Positions 14,785 to 53,115 of a stretch of DNA of 64,000 nt are shown piece by piece. Each line of letters begins with the position of its first letter. Position 1 is the first letter of the stretch. The notes beneath the pieces were generated by a model, which was given only the letters and a program-made list of their open reading frames with translations, was not told the DNA's origin and ran no database searches. This DNA comes from Rhodococcus rhodnii NBRC 100604. GTDB taxonomy: Bacteria > Actinomycetota > Actinomycetes > Mycobacteriales > Mycobacteriaceae. Position numbers and translations under genes: made by a program. Location of the stretch: contig NZ_BCXD01000001.1 in the NCBI RefSeq assembly GCF_001894925.1, positions 62,001 through 126,000 of the forward strand, given 5' to 3'.

Positions 14785-15137
14785 TCAGCCGCCGTCCACG
14801 TCCACGTCCACGTCCACGTCCACGTCCACGTCCACGTCCACGAGACGCTGCGTGAACATCGTGGTCCCGCCGGTCGCGAACTCCCGGAGGTCCCGTCCTG
14901 CCGCCTTCATCTCGGGTGACCCGAGCGCGGCGGCGAGGTCGTCGTCGCTCCCGAACTCCATGTACGCGATCATGTGATGCGGGGGTTCGGCATTCCCGAG
15001 CGACTCGCACGGGCCCCAGGTCAGCCGCCGCAGTCCGGGAACCTTCGCCGCCAGTGGCGCTGCGTCGTGCGGTAGTACTCGTCGAACGCCGCGGGATCGT
15101 CCGGGCGCCCGTAACAGATGCACAGCTGGGCGGTCAT
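14785..15137 (-). pseudogene. EthD-family protein, frameshifted, with (Val-Asp) repeat tail
   Basis: The start, [24 protein letters not shown], matches the EthD dimeric alpha/beta-barrel family, but the frame then closes early. One base out of frame the sequence continues with APLAAKVPGLRRLTWGPC and on to FATGGTTMFTQRL. Adding one base in ACGACG near 15063-15070 gives a continuous 117-residue protein (353 bp present, 354 needed). The C-terminus is (Val-Asp)8-Gly-Gly, from the hexamer repeat at 14794-14841. The ATG overlaps the paaZ stop as ATGA, so it is coupled to paaZ. EthD proteins are often found with paa genes; their role there is not established. Confidence 0.75.
14794..14841. repeat. 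Perfect hexanucleotide microsatellite, (GTCCAC)8
   Basis: Eight uninterrupted GTCCAC units span 48 bp. Read leftward they encode eight Val-Asp pairs at the C-terminus of the EthD-like protein, just before Gly-Gly-stop. Because the unit is six bases, copy-number change would lengthen or shorten the tail without shifting frame. Confidence 0.95.
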
Positions 15138-27283: not shown

Positions 27284-28141
27284 ATGCGAATCATGACCCG
27301 CGTTTCTCCGCCTTCGGAGACACTGTCCGTATCCATCGATTTCTGGGAATACGGTTGCTGCGGCACCGTTCCCGCCGTCGGCGCTCCACTGGCTGCAACT
27401 CTCACCGCCCAGCCACTCGACAGCGGGGATCCGAGAATGTCGGCACCCGGCGTCGTCGAGTGGGATGAAGACCTCGAACTCGTTCGCTTCGCGACCTGTT
27501 CGGCGCGATGGGACCCTGCCGGAGGCGACCCTCGGTCACGGTCGCTGTTCGTCGTCGCCTCGTGGCATGACAACGACGAGATTCCTGCACCGTCGATCAT
27601 CGGCGAGATCACGGACCTGTACGAGAGATCCGCGCTCTACCGGCTCGACGGGCGGGAATCGCACATGCTTCCGGGAAGCCTCCGCTACCGGCGTGTCCCC
27701 ACGGTGCCGCGATTCCCACGGGAACGGAGCAGCGGCAACGTTCAGCGACAGTTCACCGGCGTCGTCGCCACGCTGCGTGTCGATGCCTGCACCGAGCCGA
27801 CCACCGAGGACATCGCCGCTCACCACACCCGGATCGAGCGTCGCCGGCGAACGCTGTATCTCACCGGCCCCGCATCGTCGTTCGGCGCGACGGTACCTGC
27901 GGCCGGTGGCCAGTTGTCCATCGATCTCGGCGACCCGCGCATCACCAAGCGTGGGCACCACGCGTCTGCAACCGGCGTCGTGCGGGGCACCCTCCAGCAG
28001 GTCGGAGTAGCGGTCGGGGTACCCGAGGGATACTCCACGATCAGCCGCGTCGAGGCCGGAATTCCGGCGGGCAACGTCACCGCCCCGCTTTTCGTCGTGT
28101 TGACGATCGATGCGACCGGAATCCCGGGAACCCCGCCATGA
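27284..28141 (+). CDS. Uncharacterised protein with a DUF6578-like start
   Basis: A 285-residue soluble protein. Its start (SIDFWEYGCCGTVPAVGAPLAATL) resembles the DUF6578 pattern of a tryptophan, CCG and a VG block seen in actinobacterial hypotheticals; this is by eye. A second part (about 150-280) contains LTGPASSFGATVPAAGGQLSIDLGDP. This resembles the spacing of the first block, suggesting an internal duplication. ATG at 27284 or 27293 is possible, with no strong ribosome site. It is divergent from the HNH gene and convergent with the next. No function is assigned. Confidence 0.55.
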   Translation: MRIMTRVSPPSETLSVSIDFWEYGCCGTVPAVGAPLAATLTAQPLDSGDPRMSAPGVVEWDEDLELVRFATCSARWDPAGGDPRSRSLFVVASWHDNDEIPAPSIIGEITDLYERSALYRLDGRESHMLPGSLRYRRVPTVPRFPRERSSGNVQRQFTGVVATLRVDACTEPTTEDIAAHHTRIERRRRTLYLTGPASSFGATVPAAGGQLSIDLGDPRITKRGHHASATGVVRGTLQQVGVAVGVPEGYSTISRVEAGIPAGNVTAPLFVVLTIDATGIPGTPP

Positions 28142-28169
28142 GGCGAAGCACATCCTGCGGCGGCCGTGC

Positions 28170-28496
28170 TCAGCCACCGAGTGGCCAGGGCTCGTACTTC
28201 ACATCGGCGAAGTCCGCGACCTCCACGCGAAGCCGAGCAAGGATGTCGTCGCCGTCGACGCGCCACTTCTCGCGACTCTCGTCGCAATCCCATCCACGCT
28301 CGTGGTGAAAGTGGCGTTCCCAGAAGTTGTGCCACGATGCCATGTCGACGGTGAGAGGGGCCGAGAGACCGTAGATGTCCGGTTCGGTCGCGTAACCGGC
28401 GTCCCCCGTCGGCGTCGAGTTCTCCCACAGCGGCCAGTCGTGGCCGTAGTCGGGGAACAAGCGGATCGTGCGCCTCTTCGGCGGTATTCCGTACAC
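28170..28496 (-). CDS. Hypothetical 108-residue soluble protein
   Basis: A small acidic, tryptophan-rich protein. It includes IRLFPDYGHDWPLWENSTPTGD, SWHNFWERHFHHERGWD and a C-terminal VADFADVKYEPWPLG. The (I/L)RLxPDYGxxPLW opening is seen in many short actinobacterial hypotheticals, often in accessory DNA. Function is not known. The start at GTG 28496 is uncertain and lacks a clear ribosome site. The gene converges with the DUF6578-like gene. Confidence 0.6.
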   Translation of the reverse strand: MYGIPPKRRTIRLFPDYGHDWPLWENSTPTGDAGYATEPDIYGLSAPLTVDMASWHNFWERHFHHERGWDCDESREKWRVDGDDILARLRVEVADFADVKYEPWPLGG

Positions 28497-28657
28497 AGCA
28501 GCGCCAGTGTTCCGGTATCCATCGAATAACTCTTGTTTCCAGGATAATTCGCATTACGAGACCTTGAAATCGTACCGACGACGCATATGCGAATCCGGGA
28601 TCACACGGTGCCGCGGCGCCGGGCGAGGAGCAACACCCCGCAACACTGGGCAGTGGG

Positions 28658-29122
28658 TCACTCGATGTCGCGCCTCATCGCGACGACATCGTAGTGCCCG
28701 GCCGATTCACGCCCCGTCTCACGAAAGCCGAAGCGCCTGTACAGGCGAAGATTTCCCACGCTCCGTGAGCCCGTGAACAATTCGACTCCGCGAACGGAAT
28801 CGGGAAGCACAGAATCGACCGCTTTCAGGAGCCGACTCCCCAGCCCTCGCCCCTGGAGGTCCGGCACCACCATGAGCCGCCCGAGGTCGGCGACATCGCC
28901 GCGCACATGGATTCGTGCCGACGCGACCAACCGGCCGACGACGCGAATCCCGAGAACGATCACGGCCGGATTCGCCAGGTCGGCGAGTAGTTCGTCCATC
29001 GTCTGGGTCAGCGCCGGGAGTGCGAGATCGTCGTGCAACTGCGCCTCCGCCACGAAAGCTGCGCGTTGCAGCGTCAGAATCTCACCCGCGTCGGACACTC
29101 CCAGTCGCGATATCTCCGTCAT
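28658..29122 (-). CDS. GNAT-family N-acetyltransferase
   Basis: A 154-residue GCN5-related acetyltransferase. Motif A, which binds acetyl-CoA pyrophosphate, is LGRLMVVPDLQGRGLGSRLLKAVD (around 80-103). The C-terminal LYRRFGFRETGRESAGHYDVVAMRRDIE is a standard motif-B ending. The substrate is unknown. ATG at 29122 is plausible. It lies downstream of the MarR gene on the same strand, 33 bp apart, so the two may form one unit. Confidence 0.85.
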   Translation of the reverse strand: MTEISRLGVSDAGEILTLQRAAFVAEAQLHDDLALPALTQTMDELLADLANPAVIVLGIRVVGRLVASARIHVRGDVADLGRLMVVPDLQGRGLGSRLLKAVDSVLPDSVRGVELFTGSRSVGNLRLYRRFGFRETGRESAGHYDVVAMRRDIE

Positions 29123-29155
29123 CCCCCACCTCGTGCTGCGCTCAGGCGACTCAAC

Positions 29156-29587
29156 CTACTCTCTCGCGGCCGCCGTGTACGCCTCCATGGCTGCCCGAAA
29201 ATACGCGACGAGCCCTTCTTGCTGCTCCTCGGTCAGCGACGCCACGGCCTCGCCGATCGGTCCACGAACCCGATCGAGCAACTCGGCGAGCCCGTCGGGC
29301 AGATGCCCCGTGTGCGCGACGACGGTTCGCCGCCGGTCGGTGGGGTCCACCCGACGTTCCGCGATGCCTGCGGCGACGAGGCGGTCGACCACGCGGGTCG
29401 TCGCACTGGGCGAGAGCCCGAGGTTCTCGGCGAGTTGTCCGGTGGTCAGTGGTCCGTCGAGGTCGATCATGCTGCTGGCCTGGTAATCCGACGGCCCGAG
29501 ACCGCCGGCCTCTGCCGCCGCGAGGTGGAAGTGAACGACGGATGCCAGGTACGTCCGATAGGTCCGCGTCATGTCGGAGGGATTCAC
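29156..29587 (-). CDS. MarR-family transcriptional regulator
   Basis: A 143-residue winged-helix protein. Recognition segments are LTTGQLAENLGLSPSATTRVVDRLVAAGIAERR and VDPTDRRRTVVAHT, the wing. GTG at 29587 is preferred over ATG 29611 because AAAGAG lies 6 bases upstream and the ATG falls inside the operator palindrome, which is probably promoter DNA. The divergent SnoaL-like membrane protein is the likely target along with its own gene. The ligand is unknown. Confidence 0.85.
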   Translation of the reverse strand: MNPSDMTRTYRTYLASVVHFHLAAAEAGGLGPSDYQASSMIDLDGPLTTGQLAENLGLSPSATTRVVDRLVAAGIAERRVDPTDRRRTVVAHTGHLPDGLAELLDRVRGPIGEAVASLTEEQQEGLVAYFRAAMEAYTAAARE

Positions 29588-29609
29588 CGTTGACTCTTTC
29601 TGTGCATAC

Positions 29610-29624
29610 ATGCAATTATTGCAT
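29610..29624. promoter_or_regulatory. Perfect palindrome, likely MarR operator
   Basis: ATGCAAT-T-ATTGCAT is a perfect 15-mer dyad in the intergenic region between the MarR gene and the divergent gene at 29663, flanked by further TGCATACAT-like sequence. Such AT-rich dyads are typical MarR binding sites. Its position allows control in both directions. Confidence 0.8.
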
Positions 29625-29662
29625 ACATACAAACACCACTCACCGTAGGGACGGTACGCCAG

Positions 29663-30325
29663 ATGACACGCGTCGAAGTATCCGCTCACGAGAACCCCAC
29701 ACCCGACACGGAACGCGATCGGCCACGACGACGACTGTGGATCGGCGTCGGCTCGGCAGTCGCCGCAGCAGCACTCGTGGCAGGCGCCGGTTACTGGTGG
29801 TTGATGTCGGGGTCCGCGGTCGCGGCGACGGGCGCCACCGAATGCCGCGACGTCCCCACCGACAGCACGATGAGCCCGCCCGACGAAGCAGCGGCGCGCG
29901 CCGGAATCTGCGACACCCTCGCAGGACTCGCCTCCGCGTGGGGTGAGCACGACGCCGACGCCTATGGCGCACACTTCACCGAGAACGCGACGTACACGAC
30001 CTTCGCAGGGACCTACTACGACGGACGAGAGGACATCGTTCGCAGTCACGCAGCGCTGTTCGACGGGCCACTGTCCGGAACCCGCCTCGCGGACAGCTAC
30101 CTGTCACTGCGGCTCCTCACCGAGGACGTCGCCGTTCTCACCACCCGCGGAGACACTTACGACGGCGACACGCCCGGCGAACTGAGCAAAGTGCAGACCT
30201 ACACGATGATTCGCGACGGCGACGACTGGCAGGTCGCCGCCTTCCAGAACACGCAGCGCAAGAAGCTCATGGAGCAGGTGCAGTTCCGGTGGATGGACGA
30301 GACGGTGCCCGCCGCCGAGCGGTGA
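29663..30325 (+). CDS. Membrane-anchored SnoaL/SgcJ-like (NTF2-fold) protein
   Basis: A 220-residue protein with a short basic cytoplasmic start, one membrane helix (about 25-47) and an exported NTF2-like domain (75-210). The pattern LAGLASAWGEHDADAYGAHFTENATYTTFAGTYYDGREDIVRSHAALF is typical of SgcJ/EcaC or DUF4440-type proteins. YTMIRDGDDWQVAAFQNTQ is the closing strand pair. These bind small hydrophobic molecules, with diverse or no catalysis. It is divergently transcribed from the MarR gene across the palindrome and is probably regulated by it. Confidence 0.8.
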   Translation: MTRVEVSAHENPTPDTERDRPRRRLWIGVGSAVAAAALVAGAGYWWLMSGSAVAATGATECRDVPTDSTMSPPDEAAARAGICDTLAGLASAWGEHDADAYGAHFTENATYTTFAGTYYDGREDIVRSHAALFDGPLSGTRLADSYLSLRLLTEDVAVLTTRGDTYDGDTPGELSKVQTYTMIRDGDDWQVAAFQNTQRKKLMEQVQFRWMDETVPAAER

Positions 30326-30350
30326 TCGACGACATACACCGGAGCACAGT

Positions 30351-30887
30351 TCAGTCGAGCGCGATCTCCGCCTGAATCTCCCGGATCGTCGTGCCCAGGA
30401 TTCCGCGGGACAGCAGTCCGACGCCGAGCGGCCCAGCGGAATCGGACCCGAGCGGCGGGAGCAGACGCAAGACCGCCCGTTCCGCTTCGGTCAGCTCCGC
30501 CAACTGCCATCGAATCTCCGCCTCGACCACTTCATGTCGGTCGGGGGCTGCCAACGAGACCGCCTTCGCCGCGTACGCAGCGGCCCCCAGCGCATGCGCG
30601 CCCATGTGCGCGACGGCGGCGGCCTGAGCCACCGCCCTCGCTGCGGCCGCGCCCGCCGGAGTGACCGCAGCACTCGCCGCCTTCACGGCGACCATCCGCT
30701 GACCGATCTCCTCGGCTGCGTTACTCCGCCCTGCGCTGTACGCACGCGTTCGTGCAACCGCATCCTCGATGGTGCTCGATGCGTCGGCATCGCCGTCGAA
30801 CACCGGGAGCACTCGCTCGGCGCATGCGACGGCCCACCGCGCGAGCACACACCTGTCCGCATCGGCCAGAGTCTGGATCGAGGTCAT
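30351..30887 (-). CDS. Imm-5-like putative immunity protein
   Basis: A 178-residue, strongly alpha-helical, alanine-rich protein. It opens LADADRCVLARWAVACAERVLPVFDGD, then AIEDAVARTRAYSAGR, then repeated AAxAAHxA-type helices (AVAHMGAHALGAAAYAAKAV). This layout matches the Imm-5-like putative immunity family (recognition by eye). No matching toxin gene is visible nearby. It ends next to the SnoaL-like gene and starts 54 bp from the ychF fragment at the left edge of the inserted segment. Confidence 0.6.
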   Translation of the reverse strand: MTSIQTLADADRCVLARWAVACAERVLPVFDGDADASSTIEDAVARTRAYSAGRSNAAEEIGQRMVAVKAASAAVTPAGAAAARAVAQAAAVAHMGAHALGAAAYAAKAVSLAAPDRHEVVEAEIRWQLAELTEAERAVLRLLPPLGSDSAGPLGVGLLSRGILGTTIREIQAEIALD

Positions 30888-30940
30888 CGCTCGATGATCG
30901 CCGATCGGCAGGCGAATGCGCAGATGCCGACGCGCAACCG

Positions 30941-31502
30941 ACTACACGTTGAAGCGGAACTCGACGACGTCCCCGTCCTGCATGACGTAGTCTTTGCCTT
31001 CCATCCGGACCTTGCCGGCGGCCTTGGCCGCTGCCATCGATCCGGCCTCGACGAGATCGTCGAACGAGACGATCTCGGCCTTGATGAAGCCGCGCTCGAA
31101 GTCCGTGTGGATGACGCCCGCCGCCTGCGGCGCGGTGTCGCCCTTGTGGATCGTCCAGGCACGCGCTTCCTTGGGCCCCGCCGTGAGGTACGTCTGCAGG
31201 CCCAGAGTGTGGAAGCCCGTACGCGCCAGCGCATGCAGCCCCGGCTCCGTCTGGCCGATCGACTCGAGCAGTTCGAGCGCCGACTCGTCGTCGAGCTCGA
31301 GCAACTCCGCCTAGACCTTCGCGTCCAGGAAGACGGCATCCGCCGGTGCGACCGCCGCCTTCAACTCGGCCTTGCGGTCCTCGTCCGTGAGCACCGACTC
31401 GTCCGAGTTGAAGACGTACAGGAACGGCTTCGTCGTCATCAGGTTGAGCTCGCGCAGCAACGAGAAGTCGAGCGAGTCCTTCGCGCTGAACAGCGTCCGC
31501 CC
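30941..31502 (-). pseudogene. ychF 3' fragment (left copy of direct repeat), nonsense-mutated
   Basis: This stretch matches 37257-37818 at 559 of 562 positions by direct comparison. It corresponds to ychF residues ~174 to the stop codon. The three differences are at 31313, 31364 and 31431. The first turns a GAG (Glu236) into TAG. It has no start region and cannot make YchF. Similarity begins at the ychF stop codon (plus one chance base) and ends abruptly at 31502. Confidence 0.95.
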
Positions 31503-31859
31503 CAGCACCAGCAGAATCTCGACGTCGCAAAGCTCCACGACGCCCCCATGCCCCATGCCTCCGCTTGCTCGCAGAACGCGCCACGCTACCCGCAGCGGAG
31601 TGGGCCACCTACTGCGCCCTCGGCCGCACCGGCTGCTCGGCGCCGACTTCGGCACGGGTCGAGGTCCATCGGATCGTCGAGTACTAGGCAGTCGGCTTCT
31701 GGCCACTCGGCAAGGCGCGACGGTGAGACGTTGCTGCCGGAAGAGGCTCACCGCCACTGCCGGCAAACGGGAGACATCGCGAGTAGTTGAGGCTCCGGCA
31801 TTCCCCCTGAGCTACCTCGAGTTGTGCAGAGCCCCATTTGTCAAGTCCCACCGGCACTT
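31503..31859. other. Non-coding left end of the inserted segment
   Basis: These 357 bp contain no supported gene. One rightward frame, RLLAERATLPAAEWATYCALGRTG followed shortly by a stop, looks protein-like and may be the tail of a broken gene. I cannot name it. A small CCGGCA/TGCCGG hairpin (31851-31869) spans the end of the first reductase gene. Confidence 0.4.
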
Positions 31860-32780
31860 TCATTGCCGGGGATCGTCCCGCTTCCGCATCAGCTCGAAAA
31901 CGCTGGAGAAACTGTCCTTGCCGCGCCCGTTGTCCGAGCTCCGATGCAACAGGTCGCGCAGGGGCTCGTGGGTGGCCGCGGATACCCCGCTCGCCCGGCC
32001 GAGCTCGACGATCCCGTCGACGGCGGCACGGTTGAGATCGATGGTCGAGATCCCGTCCGTATAGTGCGCGGCGTCGATTTCGCGGGCCAGCTCCGGAAGG
32101 AAGGCGGCCAGGCCGTTCAGCCAGCGCGCGGCCAGCGCGGCGAAATGCTCGGGGCTCGTGCCCGTCCCGTGCAGGATCGCAAGCGAGTGCAGGAAGCCTG
32201 AAAGCGCACCGTATCCGGTGCCCAGCACCGCGAGGTCGTGGATCTCCGCCCCGCCCGGATCGGCGCCGAAGTAGTGTGCGGGCGCCATGACTTCCAACGC
32301 ACTGCGGTAGCGCGTGAACGCTTCCTCCGAACCGCTGTAAAGGAAGAAGCCCTCTCGCGTGGCGACGCTGTCCGGCAGCGCCATCATGGCCCCGTCCAGA
32401 TACGCGGCACCGTGCCCGGCCACCCAAGCGGCGAGGTCGCGCGCCTGGTCCGGTGTGCTATTGGCGAGGTTGACCACCGTACGACCCTGTAGGGCGGCTG
32501 TGGCCGGGACCAAGGTTTGACGTACGGCGACGTGGTCGAGCAACGGGGCGACCACCAGCGGCGCGGCGGCGACCGCCTCGGCGGCGGTGGCCGCGGGCTC
32601 GGCCCCTCGCGAGGCCAGCGCATCGGCCTTTCCCGGGCTGCGATTCCAGACGATCGTTCGGTATCCGGCGTCGATGAAGGCGGCGGCTATCGGCGTGCCC
32701 ATTCGCCCTAGGCCGAGCACGGCCACACCGGGCTGCTCGGCGGACGGGCCAGCAGCCACATGGTGCAGTTGCTCAGGCAT
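31860..32780 (-). CDS. Imine-reductase-like NAD(P)-dependent oxidoreductase 1
   Basis: A 306-residue member of the 6-phosphogluconate dehydrogenase-like / imine reductase (IRED) group. The Rossmann motif is VAVLGLGRMGTPIAAAF (GLGRMG at 23-28), followed by TIVWNRSPGKADALASRGA, the NADPH-preference segment. The all-helical C-terminal half carries GALSGFLHSLAI and forms the swapped dimer in IREDs. Asp182 (HDLAVLG) sits where R-type IREDs carry an aspartate. The ATG overlaps the upstream reductase by 8 bp. It may reduce a cyclic imine or a beta-hydroxyacid-like substrate. Confidence 0.75.
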   Translation of the reverse strand: MPEQLHHVAAGPSAEQPGVAVLGLGRMGTPIAAAFIDAGYRTIVWNRSPGKADALASRGAEPAATAAEAVAAAPLVVAPLLDHVAVRQTLVPATAALQGRTVVNLANSTPDQARDLAAWVAGHGAAYLDGAMMALPDSVATREGFFLYSGSEEAFTRYRSALEVMAPAHYFGADPGGAEIHDLAVLGTGYGALSGFLHSLAILHGTGTSPEHFAALAARWLNGLAAFLPELAREIDAAHYTDGISTIDLNRAAVDGIVELGRASGVSAATHEPLRDLLHRSSDNGRGKDSFSSVFELMRKRDDPRQ

Positions 32781-33669
32781 CGCGCCCGCCCTTCGCGATC
32801 GCCCCGATGACGCTGGCGATACCGCTCGCGCCGTGCCCCTCGGCCGCCGTCTGCCGCAGGAGGGAGCGGAACAGGGCGGGCACCTGCGTACCGATTCCCT
32901 GGGTATCGCTGGTGTCCGACAGGTGCTCGATCGCGGCCAGGTGGACGTCGACGGTGCCATCGTCGTCGGGGAAGACGCCCTCGTCGGCCTGCCGCGCGTG
33001 ATCTGTCATCAAGGAGGTCACGAACGGCATGTGCGCGGTTGCCACTGCACCGAACTCGGCCGGGTCGACACCTGCCGACCGCACCAGCGCGAGGGAGTGG
33101 TAGAAGCCGGCCAGCGCGCCCCACGCCAGACCGAACAGCGCGGTGTCGTACACCGAGGCCAGGGCCGGATCGGCGCCCAGGTACGTGGAGTTGCCCAGGC
33201 TTCGCAGCACCGTCCGGTGGCGCTCGAAGGCGCCGCGTGAGCCGCTGAGCACGAACAGCGCCTCGGGGCGTCCGACCAGCCGGGTACCGCTCATGGCGGC
33301 ACCGTCGACATAGGCCGCACCGTGCCCGGCTGCCCACGCAGCCGCAGCGGTGGCGTCGTGCGGAGTCCCCGAGGTGAGGTTCACCAGGGTCCGGCCCCGC
33401 AGTTGCCCGGCTACCGGGTCGAGTACCGTCCGCACGGTCGCATAGTCCGGCAGGCTCACCACGACCAGTGAACTGGCGGCGACAGCCTCGCCCGCGTTCG
33501 CTGCGCGGGTGGCACCCTGGGCGGCAAGCGCTTCGGCTTTCGCGGGGGAGCGGTTCCAGACCGTGGTGCTGTACCCGCCCGCCAGGAAAGCCTGGGCGAG
33601 GCGGGTGCCCATCTGCCCCAGACCGATGACCGCTGCTGCGGTCGGCTCAACGTTGATTTCGTCCGACAT
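32773..33669 (-). CDS. Imine-reductase-like NAD(P)-dependent oxidoreductase 2
   Basis: A 298-residue paralogue of the preceding enzyme. AAAVIGLGQMGTRLAQAF (GLGQMG at 16-21), TTVWNRSPAKAEALAAQGA and LVNLTSGTPHDA form the NADPH domain. YDTALFGLAWGALAGFYHSLAL is the IRED active-site helix, with Asp175 in the R-type position. The two proteins are clearly related but differ throughout, so this is not a recent duplication. GGGAG lies before ATG 33669. It is the first gene of a two-gene unit divergent from the SARP regulator, its likely controller. Confidence 0.78.
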   Translation of the reverse strand: MSDEINVEPTAAAVIGLGQMGTRLAQAFLAGGYSTTVWNRSPAKAEALAAQGATRAANAGEAVAASSLVVVSLPDYATVRTVLDPVAGQLRGRTLVNLTSGTPHDATAAAAWAAGHGAAYVDGAAMSGTRLVGRPEALFVLSGSRGAFERHRTVLRSLGNSTYLGADPALASVYDTALFGLAWGALAGFYHSLALVRSAGVDPAEFGAVATAHMPFVTSLMTDHARQADEGVFPDDDGTVDVHLAAIEHLSDTSDTQGIGTQVPALFRSLLRQTAAEGHGASGIASVIGAIAKGGRDA

Positions 33670-33801
33670 GTGGTGGCTCCCGATTCGCGGAACTGTCGCA
33701 CCGGGGTGGTGCGTTCGATGTGCCTCGATCGTGCCCGGTACCGCTGTCGGAGCTCTGTCGGATCGTTGGCGGTCCCCGGTCGGGTACTGTCGGTTCAGCT
33801 C

Positions 33802-33817
33802 TATAGCCTTGCGGTCA
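33802..33817 (+). promoter_or_regulatory. -10-like element directly upstream of the SARP gene
   Basis: TATAGC (33802-33807) lies 9 bases before the ATG at 33817, and no ribosome-binding sequence is visible between them. This arrangement fits a leaderless transcript beginning at or next to the A of the start codon, a frequent situation in actinobacteria. Confidence 0.5.
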
Positions 33818-36800
33818 TGTACTTCTCGGTACTCGGGCCCGTCCCTGCCTGGACCGCCGACGGGCGTGAGGTCGACATCCCGGAGGCGAAAGTACGTGCC
33901 CTGCTGGGCGCGCTGCTCGCCGACGCCGGGCGAGCAGTCTCCGTGGACCGGTTGGTCGACGCCCTCTGGGGCGAGCAGCTGCCGCGGAACCCGGCCGGTG
34001 CGCTCCAGACGAAGGTGTCGCGGCTGCGGCGCGCGCTGAGGTCGGCCGAACCGGGCACGGAGGCCCTGGTGGAGTCGACGCACCACGGTTACCGGTTGCG
34101 GATCGACCCCGAGTCCCTGGATTCCCGGCGGTTCGTCGGCCTCGCGGCCGCCGCGGCGGAACAGCCCGACCTTCGTACCAGGTCCGCGTTGCTGACGGAC
34201 GCGGTGGCGCTGTGGCGCGCGGAACCGTTCTCCGCGCTGGGGACCCCGCAGACGGTGCACGCTGCGGCTGAGCATCTGTCCGAACAGCGGCTCACCGTCC
34301 TGGAGATGCTCGCCGAGACCCGGCTCAACCTCGGCGAACACCACGCTGTCGCCGATGAGTTGGCTGAGGTAGTGGCCCGACATCCACTTCGGGAACGGTT
34401 GCGTGCCCTTCAGATCACGGCCCTGTACCGAGCGGGGCGCCAGTCCGATGCGCTGGCTGTCTACGACCAGGTACGCCGGCAGCTGGCCGACGATCTGGGC
34501 GTCGATCCAGGGCCTGAACTGGCCGCACTCCACCAGGCGGTCCTGGCCCACGCGCCTGCTCTGGGTGTGCCACCGGCCCGGACCGCGGCCCCCGACTGGC
34601 GGTCGGCCCGGAACACAGCTCCAAGTACCGCCCTGTCCGACCTGATCGGGCGGCGCGACGCCGTGTCAGCCGTGTGCGACCTGCTGAGCACCCACCGTCT
34701 GGTGACGCTGACAGGCCCCGGCGGCGTCGGCAAGACGCGCCTCGCGCAGGAAGCGGCACGTCAGATGGCCACCGACCTCCCCGACGGCATGCACATGGTC
34801 GGCCTCGCCGGCTCCGCAGAGGCGACCGAGCAGATCGGCGCCGCACTGGGCATCAGGGAAGAAGGTCCCGCCGGGCTCGAGGACGCCCTGCGCACCAGGC
34901 GGATGCTGCTGCTCGTGGACAACTGCGAGCACCTGATCGAGTCCGCGGCCGAGGCAGTACGCCAACTCCTGGCCGCCGCGCCGGGCCTGACGATCCTCAC
35001 CACCAGCCGCGAACCGCTCGGCCTGGCCGGTGAATCCGTGTGGACTGTTCCCCCGCTGTCGCAACAGGATGCCGAGCGACTGTTCGCGGAGCGGGCGGCG
35101 TCCGCGGCCCCTGGATTCACCGCCACCGCCGCCAACGCCCCATCCGTAGCAAAGGTCTGCCGCCGCCTGGACCGCATCCCTCTCGCCCTGGAACTGGCTG
35201 CAACCCGAGTCCGTGCCCTGGGAGTCGAGGAACTCGCAGTCCGGCTCGACGATCGGTTCCGGCTGCTGTCCGGCGGCGCCCGAGGAGTGCCGCCGCGCCA
35301 ACGCAGCCTCAGAGCAGTGATCGACTGGAGTTGGGAGCTGCTGAGCGAGCAGGAGCAGCACGTACTGCGCAGCCTGGCGGTCTTCACCGGCGGCTGCACC
35401 ATCGAAGCGGCCGAAGCCGTATGCCCAGGCGGCCTGGCCGTCCTCGGTGCGCTGATCCGCCTGGTGGACTGCTCGATCCTGACCGCGGCGGACGGCCCCC
35501 GGTACCTCCTGCCGGAAACCGTCGCGGCCTACGCACAAGAGCGCCTCTCCGAGACGCGCGAAACACCGGCCCTCCACCTGCGCCACCACGCCCACTACGC
35601 CGAGCTTGCCGCCCGCACGGCGGCCGGGTTGCACGGTCCGGAGCAGCATCGACTGCTTGCCCTCCGGGACCCAGAGCAGGCCAATGTCCAGTCGGCCCTG
35701 GCCCGCGCCGTACACCGCAAGGACACCGACCAGGCGCTGCGGCTGGCGCTCGACTCGGCCTGGTACTGGTACCTGCGCGGCCGCCTGGGCGAAGCCCGGC
35801 GCTCGTTTGCCGACGTGCTGAGCCTGGACGAAGGCGATGCGGGCGGACTTCGCGCGCAGGCCGTCCTGTGGCATGCCGGATTCGCTCACCTCACCGGTCG
35901 GACGGCCCGCAGCCCGGCGCCCGCACCTGTCCCTGAGACCGGAAGCGGATCCGGCGACGCACGCGCGCAGTGGTTCCTGGGCCATGCCTGCCTCAAGGCA
36001 GGAGAAGACCTGCCCCGCAGCGAGGCCCTCGTCGACCGCGCGCTGGACGGCGCCCGGTCGAGCGGCGACCAGTGGGGCATCGCGGCGGCGCAGAGCAGCC
36101 GATCCGTGCACGCTCTGCTGCGCGGCGACCTGAGGGCGGCCAGGAGCCGCGCAGAGGAAGCGCACCTCATCTTCGTGGAACTCAGCGACAACTGGGGCCA
36201 GTTGCAGACCACCTACCCCCTGGCCTCGCTTGCGGCCATCGCCGGCGACTACGCGATGGCCACCCGCCTGCACCAGGAAGGGCTCCGGCTGGCACAGGAT
36301 CTCGGATTCCCGGCCGAAGCCGCCGACCGGATCAGCGGCCTGGGCCGCGTCGCCCTCCTGACCCGCGACTTCGCCAAGGCCGACGAACTCCATCGCAAGG
36401 CCCGCGCCCTGGCCGCCGAGCACGGCTACTCCGCGGGCGAGGTACACGCCGAGATCGGGTTGGCCCTCGGCGCCCGCCGACAGGGCGATTTCGACGTCGC
36501 CGAGCAACTGCTCGACAAGACTCTCGCCTGGCACCGCGAGACAGCGTTCGGTCCCGGCCCCGCCCTGTTGCTCGCCGAGTTGGGTTTCCTTGCCGAACAG
36601 CGCGGCGATGCGACCGAGGCCCTCGCCCGGCATCGTCAAGGGCTCGTCGTCGCCCGCGAGAGCCAGGATCCAAGGGCCGTGGCACTCGCACAGGAGGGCC
36701 TCGCCGGCGCTCACGCCCTCGCGGGCAGACCGGAGCGGGCAGCTCGTCTGCTGGCCAGCGCCAGACGGGCCCGCGAGCGCGCCGGGGCACCCTTACCGGA

Positions 36801-36912
36801 CGCCGAGCGCGACGATGTCGACCGGATCACGGCCCAGATCCTGGTCGCACGGCGGACGGAACGCTCCTTCGCCAAGCCGTCGGCGAAAGGCACCCGCGAG
36901 AACGACGCATGA
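33817..36912 (+). CDS. Large SARP/AfsR-type transcriptional regulator with NB-ARC and TPR
   Basis: A 1031-residue regulator. The N-terminal OmpR-type winged helix (1-95; KVRALLGALLADAGRAVSVDRLVDALWG) leads to a bacterial transcriptional activation domain (98-245). The NB-ARC ATPase has the P-loop TGPGGVGKTRLA (299-310) and Walker-B-like LLLVDNCEHL (about 365). The C-terminal half is made of TPR-like helices (LHQEGLRLAQDLG, ALARHRQGLVVARESQDPRAVALAQEGLAGAHALAG). SARPs usually activate antibiotic or secondary-metabolite genes. Here the only neighbours are the two divergent reductases. Codon use is CTG-rich, unlike surrounding core genes. It looks intact. Confidence 0.9.
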   Translation: MYFSVLGPVPAWTADGREVDIPEAKVRALLGALLADAGRAVSVDRLVDALWGEQLPRNPAGALQTKVSRLRRALRSAEPGTEALVESTHHGYRLRIDPESLDSRRFVGLAAAAAEQPDLRTRSALLTDAVALWRAEPFSALGTPQTVHAAAEHLSEQRLTVLEMLAETRLNLGEHHAVADELAEVVARHPLRERLRALQITALYRAGRQSDALAVYDQVRRQLADDLGVDPGPELAALHQAVLAHAPALGVPPARTAAPDWRSARNTAPSTALSDLIGRRDAVSAVCDLLSTHRLVTLTGPGGVGKTRLAQEAARQMATDLPDGMHMVGLAGSAEATEQIGAALGIREEGPAGLEDALRTRRMLLLVDNCEHLIESAAEAVRQLLAAAPGLTILTTSREPLGLAGESVWTVPPLSQQDAERLFAERAASAAPGFTATAANAPSVAKVCRRLDRIPLALELAATRVRALGVEELAVRLDDRFRLLSGGARGVPPRQRSLRAVIDWSWELLSEQEQHVLRSLAVFTGGCTIEAAEAVCPGGLAVLGALIRLVDCSILTAADGPRYLLPETVAAYAQERLSETRETPALHLRHHAHYAELAARTAAGLHGPEQHRLLALRDPEQANVQSALARAVHRKDTDQALRLALDSAWYWYLRGRLGEARRSFADVLSLDEGDAGGLRAQAVLWHAGFAHLTGRTARSPAPAPVPETGSGSGDARAQWFLGHACLKAGEDLPRSEALVDRALDGARSSGDQWGIAAAQSSRSVHALLRGDLRAARSRAEEAHLIFVELSDNWGQLQTTYPLASLAAIAGDYAMATRLHQEGLRLAQDLGFPAEAADRISGLGRVALLTRDFAKADELHRKARALAAEHGYSAGEVHAEIGLALGARRQGDFDVAEQLLDKTLAWHRETAFGPGPALLLAELGFLAEQRGDATEALARHRQGLVVARESQDPRAVALAQEGLAGAHALAGRPERAARLLASARRARERAGAPLPDAERDDVDRITAQILVARRTERSFAKPSAKGTRENDA

Positions 36913-37256
36913 GCGGCCGTCCGCCGTACACACCGGGGCCTGAGGCCGGCTTCTTACGACGATCCGTCCTCGAGGTGAGCCACCCAGCGTCAACCAGCCG
37001 GGGTCGCAGGCGGAAGGGCCGTCGCCATCGCCGTCTCGGCCTTGCCCTGCTTCAGGGTGGGGTGCGCACCCGATTCCCGGAGTGTGTATGCCATCGAGAC
37101 CAGGATCCGATGCTGTTCAGCGACGGGCCGGTGCAGCAAGCGCCCGGACCATGGGTCAGCGGGATCCCCGATTACCGAAACCGGGGATCCGCCGAACAGT
37201 TGTAGATCACCGCCACTTCCTGTCCGCCCGTAGAAGGGCAGCAGTCAACGTCAGCC
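36913..37256. other. Non-coding right end of the inserted segment, with a hairpin
   Basis: No gene is supported in these 344 bp. A 9-bp inverted repeat, GGATCCCCG (37162-37170) with CGGGGATCC (37182-37190), could terminate transcription from the SARP gene or from leftward ychF. The sequence changes abruptly to ychF at 37257. Confidence 0.5.
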
Positions 37257-37818
37257 ACTACACGTTGAAGCGGAACTCGACGACGTCCCCGTCCTGCATG
37301 ACGTAGTCTTTGCCTTCCATCCGGACCTTGCCGGCGGCCTTGGCCGCTGCCATCGATCCGGCCTCGACGAGATCGTCGAACGAGACGATCTCGGCCTTGA
37401 TGAAGCCGCGCTCGAAGTCCGTGTGGATGACGCCCGCCGCCTGCGGCGCGGTGTCGCCCTTGTGGATCGTCCAGGCACGCGCTTCCTTGGGCCCCGCCGT
37501 GAGGTACGTCTGCAGGCCCAGAGTGTGGAAGCCCGTACGCGCCAGCGCATGCAGCCCCGGCTCCGTCTGGCCGATCGACTCGAGCAGTTCGAGCGCCGAC
37601 TCGTCGTCGAGCTCGAGCAACTCCGCCTCGACCTTCGCGTCCAGGAAGACGGCATCCGCCGGTGCGACCGCCGCCTTCAGCTCGGCCTTGCGGTCCTCGT
37701 CCGTGAGCACCGACTCGTCCGAGTTGAAGACGTACAGGAACGGCTTGGTCGTCATCAGGTTGAGCTCGCGCAGCAACGAGAAGTCGAGCGAGTCCTTCGC
37801 GCTGAACAGCGTCCGCCC
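37257..37818 (-). repeat. Right copy of the 562-bp ychF direct repeat
   Basis: This is the copy inside the intact ychF gene, 6316 bp to the right of its partner at 30941-31502 and in the same orientation. The first 372 bp are identical in the two copies; all three differences fall in the half next to the left junction with inserted DNA. Confidence 0.97.
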
Positions 37819-38337
37819 GTCGTCGAGGACCGCCTGAGCCTTGGCGGCCTCGTCGCGCTGCGGGCCGAGCTCCTTGTTCTTCTTCGCTTCCTTCTCGAGC
37901 CGCGGAAGCGCCTTCTCCAGGGTCTGGATGTCCGCGAGGATCAGCTCGGTCTCGATGATCTGGATGTCGGCGAGCGGATCCACCTGGCCGTCGACGTGCA
38001 CGACGTCGTCGTCGGCGAACACACGCACGACCTGACAGATCGCGTCGGCCTCGCGGATGTTCGCGAGGAACTTGTTGCCGAGCCCGGCGCCCTCGGACGC
38101 GCCCTTGACGATGCCGGCGATGTCGACGAACGACACCGTCGCGGGCACGAGCCGCTCGGAACCGAAGATCTTCGCGAGCTCGCCGAGCCGCGGATCGGGC
38201 AGCTCGACGACGCCGACATTGGGCTCGATCGTCGCGAACGGATAGTTCGCGGCGAGCACGTCGTTCTTGGTCAGCGCGTTGAAGAGGGTCGACTTACCGA
38301 CGTTGGGCAGTCCGACGATTCCGAGAGTAAGGCTCAC
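37258..38337 (-). CDS. ychF: YchF/Obg-like ATPase
   Basis: A 359-residue P-loop ATPase of the Obg-HflX group that binds ribosomes and acts in stress and redox responses. Walker A is GIVGLPNVGKSTLFNALT near residues 6-23, followed by the switch block SFVDIAGIVKGASEGAGLGNKFL. The nucleotide-specificity segment reads YVFNSDES (NxxE), the signature of ATP rather than GTP preference. A TGS domain with GWTIHKGDTAPQAAG-like sequence lies at the end. It is full length and in frame, so the duplicated right copy remains functional. Confidence 0.97.
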   Translation of the reverse strand: MSLTLGIVGLPNVGKSTLFNALTKNDVLAANYPFATIEPNVGVVELPDPRLGELAKIFGSERLVPATVSFVDIAGIVKGASEGAGLGNKFLANIREADAICQVVRVFADDDVVHVDGQVDPLADIQIIETELILADIQTLEKALPRLEKEAKKNKELGPQRDEAAKAQAVLDDGRTLFSAKDSLDFSLLRELNLMTTKPFLYVFNSDESVLTDEDRKAELKAAVAPADAVFLDAKVEAELLELDDESALELLESIGQTEPGLHALARTGFHTLGLQTYLTAGPKEARAWTIHKGDTAPQAAGVIHTDFERGFIKAEIVSFDDLVEAGSMAAAKAAGKVRMEGKDYVMQDGDVVEFRFNV

Positions 38338-38403
38338 GGTTATCCGATTCTACGGGTCGCACGCAACGCCGTCTCCGGCCCTCGCCCCAGCCCCACCGAA
38401 AGC

Positions 38404-38805
38404 TCAGCCGTACCGGTAGGGCGTCGGCGAGGGCGCATCCACCGCAGCCGACACCGCCACCGCGACGATGGCGACGTAGAACACGATGAGCAGGACGAAC
38501 AGCAGCGCCCACACGAGCAGCGCGATCTTGCCGAGCTTCTTGGCCCGATCGGAGGCGTACTGCGCCGCCTGATAGTTGCCTTCGAGCCACCGCGGCACGA
38601 CGTCGTGGACGTGATTCCAGGCCGCGAACGCGAGCGGCCAGAAGAAGAGGGTGGCTGCAACAGCCCACCCGGCGTTGCGTGGCGGAACGCCGGGTGTCCC
38701 CGGAGTCCGCTGAATCGGCGGTTGCGTCGTGATCGCCGACTGCTCCGCCCCGTACTGCGGGTAGCAGTAACCGGCACCGTAATTCTGCATGGACGTATCA
38801 CTCAT
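38404..38805 (-). CDS. CD225/dispanin-like small membrane protein
   Basis: A 133-residue protein with a Tyr/Pro/Gln-rich N-terminal ~40 residues. A re-entrant hydrophobic segment follows (NAGWAVAATLFFWPLAFAAWNHVHDVVPRWLEGNYQAAQYASDRAKKL), then a C-terminal membrane helix (LLVWALLFVLLIVFYVAIVAVAVS). The short cytoplasmic stretch with NYQAAQYAS and a basic pair is the CD225 hallmark. Bacterial members have no defined role. ATG at 38805 is chosen because a G-rich site precedes it and MSDTSM is a natural start. Confidence 0.75.
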   Translation of the reverse strand: MSDTSMQNYGAGYCYPQYGAEQSAITTQPPIQRTPGTPGVPPRNAGWAVAATLFFWPLAFAAWNHVHDVVPRWLEGNYQAAQYASDRAKKLGKIALLVWALLFVLLIVFYVAIVAVAVSAAVDAPSPTPYRYG

Positions 38806-38892
38806 GAAGCCCCCCAGATGATGCACCGGACCACTCCGGTGTCCGCGCAGAATATAGCCCGTCGCAACGACACTCGGCGAACCGACTCCTGT

Positions 38893-39471
38893 TCACTCCG
38901 CCCGTGCCACCGTCACCCGCCAGTCGCTGCCCGGCGCCCACGGCTCCATCGCCCATCCACCGAACCGGTGGACGACGGCGAAACCCTCGGCGGCGAGGTC
39001 GTCGTCGAACCGCTCGGGGGTGTAGCGGGCGCTGCTCGTGAAACCAGCGACGAACAGACCGCCGGCATCCAGATGCGCGCGGACCCGTCCGACGACGCGC
39101 CGCTCGCTTCCCGGCTCGAGGAACACCATGACGTTTCCGGCAGCGACGACGGCATCGAACGTGCAGCCGAGATCGAGTGTCGCGAGCTCGGCACGCCGGA
39201 CGTCGAGCGACGGATCCTGCCGCGCTCGGGCCAGCAACACGTCGTCGAGATCGACCGCCGTCACCGCGTGGGAACGACGCGCCAGTTCGGACCCCACTCG
39301 GCCCGTCCCGCACCCCGCGTCGAGAACCGCCGAGTCACGCGGCAGCAACGCGTCCACGAACCGTGCCTCGCCGTGCAGGTCCTCCCCGGCGTCGGCGAGT
39401 TCGTCGAAACGTTCGACATAACGCTGCGAATCGTCCTGGGAGCGTTCGGCTTCCCATCTCGTCTGCGCCAC
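38893..39471 (-). CDS. Class I SAM-dependent methyltransferase
   Basis: A 192-residue methyltransferase. Motif I is AVLDAGCGTGRVGSELARR (around 47-66), motif II is VTAVDLDDVLLARAR, and the acidic strand is FDAVVAAGNVMVFL. The remaining C-terminal strands (LFVAGFTSSARYTPERFDDDL) complete the Rossmann-like fold. The substrate is not predictable. The start is a GTG at 39471. It is divergent from cstA. Confidence 0.85.
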   Translation of the reverse strand: MAQTRWEAERSQDDSQRYVERFDELADAGEDLHGEARFVDALLPRDSAVLDAGCGTGRVGSELARRSHAVTAVDLDDVLLARARQDPSLDVRRAELATLDLGCTFDAVVAAGNVMVFLEPGSERRVVGRVRAHLDAGGLFVAGFTSSARYTPERFDDDLAAEGFAVVHRFGGWAMEPWAPGSDWRVTVARAE

Positions 39472-39587
39472 GACTCCACCCTACGTGCGGCGTCGGACAC
39501 GCCGACGAGACGGCCGCCGGCGAACTCTGTCCTTTCCCACGCGAAAGGAATACAGTGACGGGCGCCACAAGCCTCGAGAGGACATTC

Positions 39588-41882
39588 ATGACGTCGTCGC
39601 GCTCGTCTCACCACCCCGACATCGACCTCGTTCGCACCGACCCCGACCTGCCCCCGGTCGCCGTCGACGACGACTCGCCGATGAGTCCGCTCGCCCGCAT
39701 CGTGCTCGTTCTCGTGGGACTGCTCGGCGGCGTCGGCTGGTTCATGATCGCCGTGGTCCGCGGCGAGAACCCGAACTCGGTGTGGTTCGTCGTCGCTGCG
39801 GTCTGCACGTACATCGTCGCGTACCGGCTGTACTCGAAGTTCGTCGAACGCCGCATCGTCCGGCCCCGCGACGACGAGGCGACTCCCGCCGAGGAATTCG
39901 AGAACGCCAAGGACTACATGCCGACGGACCGCCGCGTCCTGTTCGGCCACCACTTCGCCGCGATCGCCGGCGCCGGCCCGCTCGTCGGACCCGTCCTCGC
40001 CGCGCAGATGGGGTATCTCCCCGGCACGCTGTGGATCATCGTCGGCGTTGTGTTCGCGGGCGCCGTTCAGGACTACCTCGTGCTGTGGCTGTCGACGAAA
40101 CGTCGTGGCCGCAGCCTCGGTCAGATGGCGCGCGACGAGATCGGCACCGTCGGCGGCGTCGCGGCCATGATCGCGGTGTTCGTCATCATGATCATCCTCA
40201 TCGCCGTGCTCGCGCTCGTCGTCGTCAACGCTCTCGCCGAAAGCCCGTGGGGCGTCTTCTCGATCGCCATGACCGTGCCGATCGCGATCTTCATGGGTAT
40301 CTATCTGCGCTACCTGAGACCGGGACGCGTGGCGGAAGTGTCGGGTATCGGCGTCGTGCTGCTGCTCCTCGCGATCATCGCGGGCGGCTGGGTGGCCGAA
40401 ACCGACTGGGGCACGGAGTGGTTCACGCTCTCCAAGACGACCATCGCCTGGTTCATCATCGGTTACGGCTTCGCCGCCTCCGTCCTGCCCGTGTGGTTGC
40501 TGCTCGCGCCCCGCGACTACCTGTCGACGTTCATGAAGATCGGCACCATCGCCCTGCTCGCCGTCGGAATCCTGGTGGCGCAGCCCGCGATCCAGATGCC
40601 CGCCGTGTCCGAATTCGCGATCGCCGGCAACGGCCCCGCCTTCGCAGGATCGCTCTTCCCGTTCCTGTTCATCACCATCGCGTGCGGTGCCCTGTCCGGC
40701 TTCCACGCCCTCATCTCGTCGGGCACCACCCCGAAACTTCTCGCGAAGCAGAAGCAGGCCCGGTTCATCGGCTACGGCGGCATGCTCACCGAGTCGTTCG
40801 TCGCGATCATGGCGCTGGTCACGGCGTGCATCATCGATCAGCACATCTACTTCGCACTCAACGCGCCGGCGACGCTGACCGGTGGAACACCGGAAACGGC
40901 AGCCGAATACGTCAACGGGCTCGGTCTCTCCGGCCCCGACATCGACCCGTCGGTGCTCAGCAACGCCGCGGCCGACGTCGGAGAGGAGTCGATCATCTCG
41001 CGGACCGGCGGCGCGCCGACGCTCGCGTTCGGCATGTCCGAGGTCCTCCACCAGTTCCTCGGCGGTGAATCGCTGAAGTCGTTCTGGTACCACTTCGCGA
41101 TCATGTTCGAGGCGCTGTTCATCCTCACGACCGTCGACGCCGGAACCCGCGTCGCGCGGTTCATGCTCTCCGACACGCTCGGCAACATCCCGGGCCGCGC
41201 GCGCCGTTTCAAGGACACGTCGTGGCGGCTCGGCGCGTGGGTGTGCTCGGCGATCGTCGTCGGGCTGTGGGGCGCGATCCTGCTCATGGGCGTCACCGAT
41301 CCCCTCGGCGGCATCAACACCCTCTTCCCGCTGTTCGGCATCGCCAATCAGCTGCTCGCCGCGATCGCGCTCACCGTCGTGCTCGTCGTCGTCGTGAAGA
41401 AGGGCCTCCTCAAATGGGCCTGGATTCCCGGTGTCCCGCTCGCGTGGGATCTCGTCGTGACGATGACGGCGTCGTGGCAGAAGATCTTCTCGGGCGACAC
41501 CTCCGTCGGCTACTGGTCCCAGCACCGCGCCTTCGTCCGCGCCAAGGCCGAGGGGCTCGAGACGTTCGGATCGGCGCGAAGCCCCGAAGCGATCGACGCC
41601 GTCATCCGCAACACCTTCGTGCAGGGAACACTCTCGATCGTGTTCGCCGTCCTCGTGCTCGTCGTCGTCGCGGCGGGCCTGTGGATCTGCTGGCGCGCCG
41701 TCCGCGCGGGCGGCCTGCCGACGACCGAGGCCCCCACCACACCCTCGCGGATCTTCGCACCCGCCGGGCTCGTCGCGACGCCCGCCGAGCGCGCCGTCCA
41801 GAAGGAATGGGACGACCTCGTCGCGCAGGGCAGGGTGCGCGCGCCCGGAGCGGCGTCGCACGGTGAGGAGGTGAGCACGTGA
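39588..41882 (+). CDS. cstA: CstA-type carbon-starvation/pyruvate transporter
   Basis: A 764-residue polytopic membrane protein of the CstA family, used for peptide or pyruvate uptake on starvation. The family blocks HHFAAIAGAGPLVGPVLAAQMGYLPGTLWIIVGVVFAGAVQDYLVL and FHALISSGTTPKLL are present. So are ESFVAIMALVTACIID and the C-terminal FPLFGIANQLLAAIAL. About 16-18 helices are expected. ATG at 39588 has GAGAGGA 5 bases upstream and gives a family-like start. Its stop overlaps the start of the small YbdD-type gene. Confidence 0.95.
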   Translation: MTSSRSSHHPDIDLVRTDPDLPPVAVDDDSPMSPLARIVLVLVGLLGGVGWFMIAVVRGENPNSVWFVVAAVCTYIVAYRLYSKFVERRIVRPRDDEATPAEEFENAKDYMPTDRRVLFGHHFAAIAGAGPLVGPVLAAQMGYLPGTLWIIVGVVFAGAVQDYLVLWLSTKRRGRSLGQMARDEIGTVGGVAAMIAVFVIMIILIAVLALVVVNALAESPWGVFSIAMTVPIAIFMGIYLRYLRPGRVAEVSGIGVVLLLLAIIAGGWVAETDWGTEWFTLSKTTIAWFIIGYGFAASVLPVWLLLAPRDYLSTFMKIGTIALLAVGILVAQPAIQMPAVSEFAIAGNGPAFAGSLFPFLFITIACGALSGFHALISSGTTPKLLAKQKQARFIGYGGMLTESFVAIMALVTACIIDQHIYFALNAPATLTGGTPETAAEYVNGLGLSGPDIDPSVLSNAAADVGEESIISRTGGAPTLAFGMSEVLHQFLGGESLKSFWYHFAIMFEALFILTTVDAGTRVARFMLSDTLGNIPGRARRFKDTSWRLGAWVCSAIVVGLWGAILLMGVTDPLGGINTLFPLFGIANQLLAAIALTVVLVVVVKKGLLKWAWIPGVPLAWDLVVTMTASWQKIFSGDTSVGYWSQHRAFVRAKAEGLETFGSARSPEAIDAVIRNTFVQGTLSIVFAVLVLVVVAAGLWICWRAVRAGGLPTTEAPTTPSRIFAPAGLVATPAERAVQKEWDDLVAQGRVRAPGAASHGEEVST

Positions 41883-53070: not shown

Positions 53071-53115
53071 CCGACTCAGGGTTCGCCGACTCAGGGTTCG
53101 CCGACTCAGGGTTCG
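53071..53115. repeat. Three perfect 15-bp tandem repeats across the DUF4245 stop
   Basis: CCGACTCAGGGTTCG is repeated three times without change. The stop codon of the leftward DUF4245 gene lies in the copy nearest that gene, so further in-frame TGAs occur downstream at 15-bp steps. It sits between the convergent xseB and DUF4245 genes. Confidence 0.95.

Follow-up and report, generated by a model that had tools for sequence, protein, structure and literature searches.

Why should a block of foreign DNA begin directly at the stop codon of ychF? The question is raised by a 64,000 nt stretch of the Rhodococcus rhodnii NBRC 100604 genome (contig NZ_BCXD01000001.1, positions 62,001 to 126,000; the whole stretch is called the window here), in which an intact ychF gene is followed by a 5,754 bp insert and then by a second, truncated copy of its own 3′ part. 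Our comparison with related genomes suggests that the ychF 3′ end is a docking site for the repeated insertion of integrase islands and small toxin–antitoxin units, an apparent recurrent insertion point with serine integrases nearby that could not be seen from the window alone. The explanation that we favour, with slightly better than even confidence, has two layers: the ychF 3′ end would be an insertion dock of the family, and the window would hold a homologous-recombination variant at that site.

The features of the locus are as follows (G numbers denote genomes, G000 being that of the window, and L numbers denote loci).

30941–31502, minus strand: left (distal) ychF copy, the 3′ part with the stop codon, truncated and with an internal nonsense codon (sequence comparison).
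30942–30968, minus strand: the 27 bases that end ychF in the left copy; relatives have this motif again behind ychF (motif search; G000:C1:92942-92968).
31503–37256, no strand assigned: foreign insert, 5,754 bp, single copy (composition, assembly and genus comparison).
31860–32780, minus strand: imine-reductase-like enzyme A (RedAm-like_C, NAD_binding_2), with the start codon picked by eye following the Streptomyces alkaliterrae homologue.
32773–33669, minus strand: imine-reductase-like enzyme B (RedAm-like_C; the best solved relatives are imine reductases).
33817–36912, plus strand: SARP/AfsR-type regulator (BTAD, AAA and TPR domains).
37257–37818, minus strand: right (proximal) ychF copy, the 3′ part of the intact gene (sequence comparison).
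37258–37284, minus strand: last 27 bases of intact ychF, the dock motif (motif search; G000:C1:99258-99284).
37258–38337, minus strand: intact ychF, 359 aa (NCBIfam TIGR00092).

The two ychF copies form a direct repeat that is identical at 559 of 562 bases and offset by 6316 bp, and their similarity ends abruptly at each flank, left and right. This bears out the repeat, and the foreign DNA between its copies, that a sequence-only reading of the window had proposed. The border had likewise been placed correctly at the ychF stop: in both copies the repeat edge lies 1 base beyond the stop codon (CTA at 30942–30944 and 37258–37260), from where the repeat runs into the gene. The copies differ at positions 31313, 31364 and 31431. 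At codon 237 the left copy has changed from GAG to TAG, the nonsense change that had also been reported; the sense base is found at this site in all 25 of the same-genus ychF genes compared (drawn from 27 other genomes of the genus, two being omitted as ychF was fragmented or at a contig end), and the other two variant bases of the left copy occur in 2/25 and 8/25 of these genes. All three mismatches do fall in the insert-side third of the left copy, as claimed, but such clustering is expected by chance in about 4 % of cases and is a weak signal.

The insert is present once in the 70-contig assembly, and its interior has a G+C content of 69–73 % (sub-windows over 32250–36999) versus 62–70 % in the flanks (28000–31500 and 37000–41500). 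A direct repeat around an insert, with one ychF copy intact, is Campbell-type geometry. No tRNA was found in the window, and tRNA-based integration was therefore rejected. Elsewhere in the window, exact 30-base repeats were found at only two places, both short-period tandem runs (14793–14811 and 53071–53086, with 6-base and 15-base steps).

The ychF end is also repeated behind unrelated DNA elsewhere in the genus. A self-comparison of 28 ychF loci from 27 genomes revealed this arrangement in four genomes (G022, G002, G025 and G011). The cargo is a HigBA-like pair in G022, a YefM/YoeB-like pair in G002 and a helicase-like protein in G025; the gene names in G022 and G002 are a reading of the sequence, and the pooled Pfam scan of cargo proteins has one YoeB match. 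In G011, a 744 nt partial, internally deleted ychF stands behind unrelated cargo (L053:4409-7263), and the sequence past this distal copy is nearly the same as that directly after ychF in G016, so that the two genomes form an occupied and empty pair.

The last 27 bases of ychF were searched for in 301 family genomes, among them that of the window. This motif was present in 267 genomes and in two or more copies in 34, of which 32 had all copies on one strand of one contig (the copies of G027 and G280 were on separate contigs). The reversed motif was found in none of the genomes. For 28 of the 32, ychF was seen upstream in the retrieved stretch, and coordinates placed it upstream in G228, G237 and G153; G107 was left out of this check. 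An internal ychF motif served as a control and was present in 292/301 genomes, with two or more copies in four: on the same strand in G011, which is the known partial copy, and on opposite strands in G013, G291 and G318. The usual spacing from the internal to the end motif was ~849 bases in the listed coordinates. At least 10 genomes (G225, G327, G029, G175, G150, G135, G316, G232, G266 and G330) have one end motif only, at a distance of 2–25 kb from the internal motif, as expected if an insert had replaced the ychF end. A repeated or displaced ychF end is carried by at least 42 of the 301 genomes.

This recurrence bears on whether the structure in the window is genuine. The assembly is a draft, and a repeat that ends at a stop codon resembles a designed homology arm, features that would suit an assembly artefact or a laboratory construct. 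Such an origin is nevertheless very improbable, given that other members of the genus and the family show a related architecture, the nonsense change and two further differences in the left copy, and the continuation of the contig for at least 190 kb past the insert. Pfam scans of the three main genes of the insert and one junction open reading frame found no vector gene, no dedicated vector search having been made.

Serine integrases were found at the same gene end. In G186, a truncated large serine recombinase adjoins the distal core, as we term the ychF-end copy on the far side of an insert. Relatives of this recombinase were detected at E ≤ 1e-8 in 73 of the 301 genomes, and the best 29 were inspected. 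A core lies no more than 45 bp from the start of the open frame in six of them, and in another two the frame starts 16–25 bp from the end of the ychF match; the other 21 of these best matches show neither type of adjacency. Linkage of a large serine recombinase to the repeated core was seen in 8/29 best matches, within one clade of nine. In a tree of 28 of these proteins (the G186 fragment was omitted), the seven adjacent genes form one group with those of G135 and G235 (support 100/99), and the adjacency label requires two changes, a number as low as in none of 500 shuffles; two branches of the tree are long, one of them (G266) within the dock-linked group. G135 and G235 were scored as non-adjacent, the G135 gene lying between ychF and the displaced core and the G235 gene on the ychF contig. 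The three adjacent proteins checked contain Resolvase and Recombinase domains. Where an integrase directly follows ychF, the YchF C-terminus differs (VVEFRTGLTSKK, VVEFRSGVPSKK), as if the newcomer supplied the last codons of ychF.

A possible recombination site was recognized beside the cores. Across 40 loci, with 52 distal and 29 proximal cores, a CGGAAC-like half-site (at least 5 of 6 bases) precedes 25 of the distal and none of the proximal cores, the partial ychF copies in G011 and G293 having fallen under proximal by the rule applied. As 27 distal cores lack it, the half-site is not universal. To judge from the sequence, CGGAAC and GTTCCG stand inverted about a central GT, an arrangement that would suit a serine-integrase site.

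The integrase matches 118 phage records at E ≤ 1e-20 and five plasmid records, all at <60 % identity. Two Microbacterium phage loci were inspected and had no ychF-type core near the integrase, and a nucleotide query with L101:1501-3200 gave no phage match. On one IMG/VR viral contig, an integrase of the ychF-linked type lies ~55 bp from a ychF-end core (L140:329-1757). A motif search for tyrosine recombinases, covering 14.5 kb downstream of ychF in the 28 genus loci and the window, matched only in G015, G018, G023 and G001, and the proteins concerned were judged from fragments to be non-recombinases.

Small inserts occupy the ychF end as well. The cargo of 30 loci amounted to 113 predicted proteins, after 62 of 174 initial calls (those of eight large-island loci) had been omitted and one added; the composition rule used for gene calling was a simple one, and a number of the calls will be erroneous. 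The Pfam matches, counted over the top 25 of 62 families, include HTH_3 (11), PIN (7), Phd/YefM (3), FitA-like (2), VapB (2), YoeB (1) and Abi_2 (1). A defence library gave scattered matches to the cargo, for example to AbiD and DarG. At nine loci (L052, L073, L086, L087, L096, L112, L113, L115 and L118), CGTTATTGAC or CGTTAATGAC stands directly behind the ychF-end core. To judge from its sequence, this element looks like the promoter/operator of a HigBA-type pair, with the gene end as its left border. In the window, the first gene past the distal ychF copy (30351–30887) is Imm-5-like and is perhaps an older arrival at the same spot. In Mycobacterium tuberculosis, the ychF gene (Rv1112) is a neighbour of vapBC32.

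For the first layer of our explanation, we propose that the final ~25 bases of ychF are most likely where the large serine integrases of this clade recombine. The newcomer would bring a replacement ychF end, and the old end would stay at the newcomer's far side. Small inserts that lack an integrase, consisting of toxin–antitoxin or single genes, would accumulate at the ychF end too.

How does the window insert relate to this dock? Its three-gene module appears to come from a distant soil bacterium. Pfam identified a SARP/AfsR-type regulator and two imine-reductase-like enzymes, and no recombinase among the genes of the insert, in agreement with the sequence-only reading. Both enzymes combine a Rossmann NAD(P) domain with a RedAm-like C-terminal domain and are predicted imine reductases or reductive aminases; among solved structures, imine reductases are the closest to enzyme B. 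A genome scan with enzyme B returned 18 loci, from Streptomyces, Nonomuraea, Actinomadura, Actinopolymorpha, Plantactinospora, Saccharopolyspora, Microtetraspora and Nocardia. In 12 of these the match is unbroken over ~5 kb at 69–83 % identity, starting at window positions 31865–31890 and ending at 36828–36876, and in the other six it is partial or in pieces. When three module loci were aligned against the rest, the full-length alignments ended near the same edges; the module therefore seems to travel as a unit, sharply bounded and moving as one among actinomycetes. The regulator and two imine reductases (window 31503–37256; L034-L051) were observed as a bounded three-gene unit of ~5 kb in many actinomycetes.

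The best relative of the module is that of S. alkaliterrae, with 83 % nucleotide identity over window 31865–36876, a match that leaves out the outer 362 and 380 bases of the insert; the donor search found none better. ychF was not found in any of the 18 module loci. Among the 27 other genomes of the genus, eight had no match to the insert and 19 had short partial matches only; none carries the insert, and an old insertion shared with diverged repeats, which had been put forward as the alternative, was not seen in these relatives. Of 296 class-level genomes, one other matched at E ≤ 1e-100, with 65 % identity across part of the regulator.

The insert shares the position of the dock, the ychF 3′ end, and its orientation. 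Its repeat is 562 bp long rather than short (~25 bp), native ychF, not a half-site, precedes the distal core, and no integrase of the clade was found in the insert or, at E ≤ 1e-8, in the genome. As it lacks both the short repeat with a half-site and the integrase, the window insert was not filed in the integrase-borne class. Among the loci inspected, G011 and the window alone were noticed to have long ychF copies. Between the functional and the distal ychF copy of G011, 21 of 489 positions differ; a consensus of seven relatives is matched at 13 of these by the distal copy and at six by the functional one, which suggests that the 3′ part of the functional ychF arrived with the cargo. This comparison favours, for the window also, homologous recombination with DNA that carried a ychF end and cargo. 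The near identity of the two window copies indicates that the ychF part would be of same-species origin or duplicated in place.

In the second layer, the incoming DNA would have consisted of a ychF 3′ end followed by the SARP, imine reductase, imine reductase module, and would have recombined homologously with ychF. It may have been a circle, integrated by a single crossover, or a linear fragment with its far end attached by illegitimate joining at a point 562 bp upstream of the stop. The circle was the form originally proposed, and the geometry fits it, but a linear fragment with homology at one end and illegitimate joining at the other gives the identical product; a circle is therefore not demonstrated. 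In either case the product would read intact ychF, cargo and a 562 bp ychF remnant that is now decaying. If the two copies recombined by a RecA-type process, a single ychF would be regained and 6,316 bp set free.

A donor that had no ychF could also have led to two nearly identical copies in a single strain. Linear foreign DNA could have been end-joined between sister chromosomes broken after the ychF stop and 562 bp upstream of it, which would leave a long target duplication; no donor ychF end is then needed, and the inner end of the left copy has no recognizable site. We consider this unlikely, as it leaves the frequent hits on the same gene end unexplained and makes a coincidence of the boundary 1 base from the stop.

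Several points weigh against the two-layer explanation that we prefer. There is no core half-site before the left copy in the window, and G000 contains no ychF-type integrase at E ≤ 1e-8. What ties the window insert to the dock is its position alone. The two window copies are too similar to separate donor from recipient, and neither excision nor a circle nor a sister strain with an empty site was observed. The boundary at the stop codon could result from chance combined with selection for an intact ychF. For the dock itself, toxin–antitoxin families also occur past the last core (HTH_3 5, Phd/YefM 4, ParE 4 and PIN 2 in a comparison set of 118 of 187 proteins); the difference from the cargo is therefore modest and we claim no enrichment. 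The flank past the last core may itself hold old cassettes.

The lack of half-site and integrase also bears on a more direct role for the enzyme. Since integrase-linked inserts match the window in position and orientation and leave repeats of ~25 bases, a ychF-type serine integrase might have inserted the module with a short repeat, the distal repeat being extended later to 562 bp by copying of ychF, through ectopic gene conversion or break repair. Gene conversion could explain the 559/562 identity. This route requires two events and finds neither a trace of the element half-site nor such an integrase in the genome, and we rate it as decidedly unlikely. Under our two-layer explanation, recurrent insertion at the ychF 3′ end supplies a reason for foreign DNA starting at the ychF stop codon, and a gene-restoring excision is predicted.

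If the shared serine-integrase dock is real, it would offer one mechanism for the accumulation and transfer of toxin–antitoxin and defence genes among actinobacterial genomes and a defined place to seek active integrases together with their sites. It would be a natural cassette system that relies on serine recombinases in place of tyrosine recombinases.

Known systems resemble parts of this picture. Pneumococcal prophages insert beside ychF, with an attB between a DUF951 gene and ychF, but this attB is an unrelated A+T-rich sequence and not the ychF 3′ end (PMC8637289). This was the only case of ychF-adjacent integration in the accessible parts of the open-licence papers searched, in which, PMC8637289 and PMC1796617 included, we recognized no report naming the ychF 3′ end as an actinobacterial integration site. 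The dock resembles the serine-integrase phages and islands of actinobacteria in having Resolvase and Recombinase enzymes beside an attachment-type site, whereas no ychF-type core was found near the integrase in the two Microbacterium phages inspected. Campbell insertion-duplication and homology-facilitated illegitimate recombination yield an intact gene, an insert and a truncated second copy, which is exactly the geometry of the window; unlike the Campbell model case, no donor DNA carrying a ychF end was found for the window, and the module was found only without ychF.

Staphylococcal cassette chromosome (SCC) elements use serine recombinases at the 3′ end of rlmH, with direct repeats of the gene end, tandem accretion and some inserts that lack a recombinase. 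The title of one report names rlmH and ccrDE (PMC10581047). The ychF dock resembles these, and other islands at gene ends, in its serine recombinases, its use of a conserved gene's 3′ end, its gene-end repeats, its tandem accretion and its recombinase-less inserts. It differs in the gene, in the hosts, in its very small one- or two-gene inserts and presumably in the recombinase clade. The window insert differs further from SCC in its 562 bp repeat and in having no recombinase site.

Integrons combine a tyrosine integrase and folded attC sites with stacked small cassettes, many of which carry toxin–antitoxin genes. The dock likewise has small cassettes stacked behind one fixed site, many of them toxin–antitoxin; unlike integrons, its linked enzymes are serine recombinases and its repeat is a gene end. 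We give an even chance to a broader reading in which the ychF 3′ end would be a chromosomal cassette dock throughout this large actinobacterial family: one serine integrase clade would insert islands, integrase-less cassettes with matching half-sites would be mobilized in trans and stacked, each swapping the last ychF codons, and homologous recombination would also load metabolic modules. The cassettes of such a dock, toxin–antitoxin pairs and defence-like genes, could then be likened to a serine-recombinase counterpart of integron arrays.

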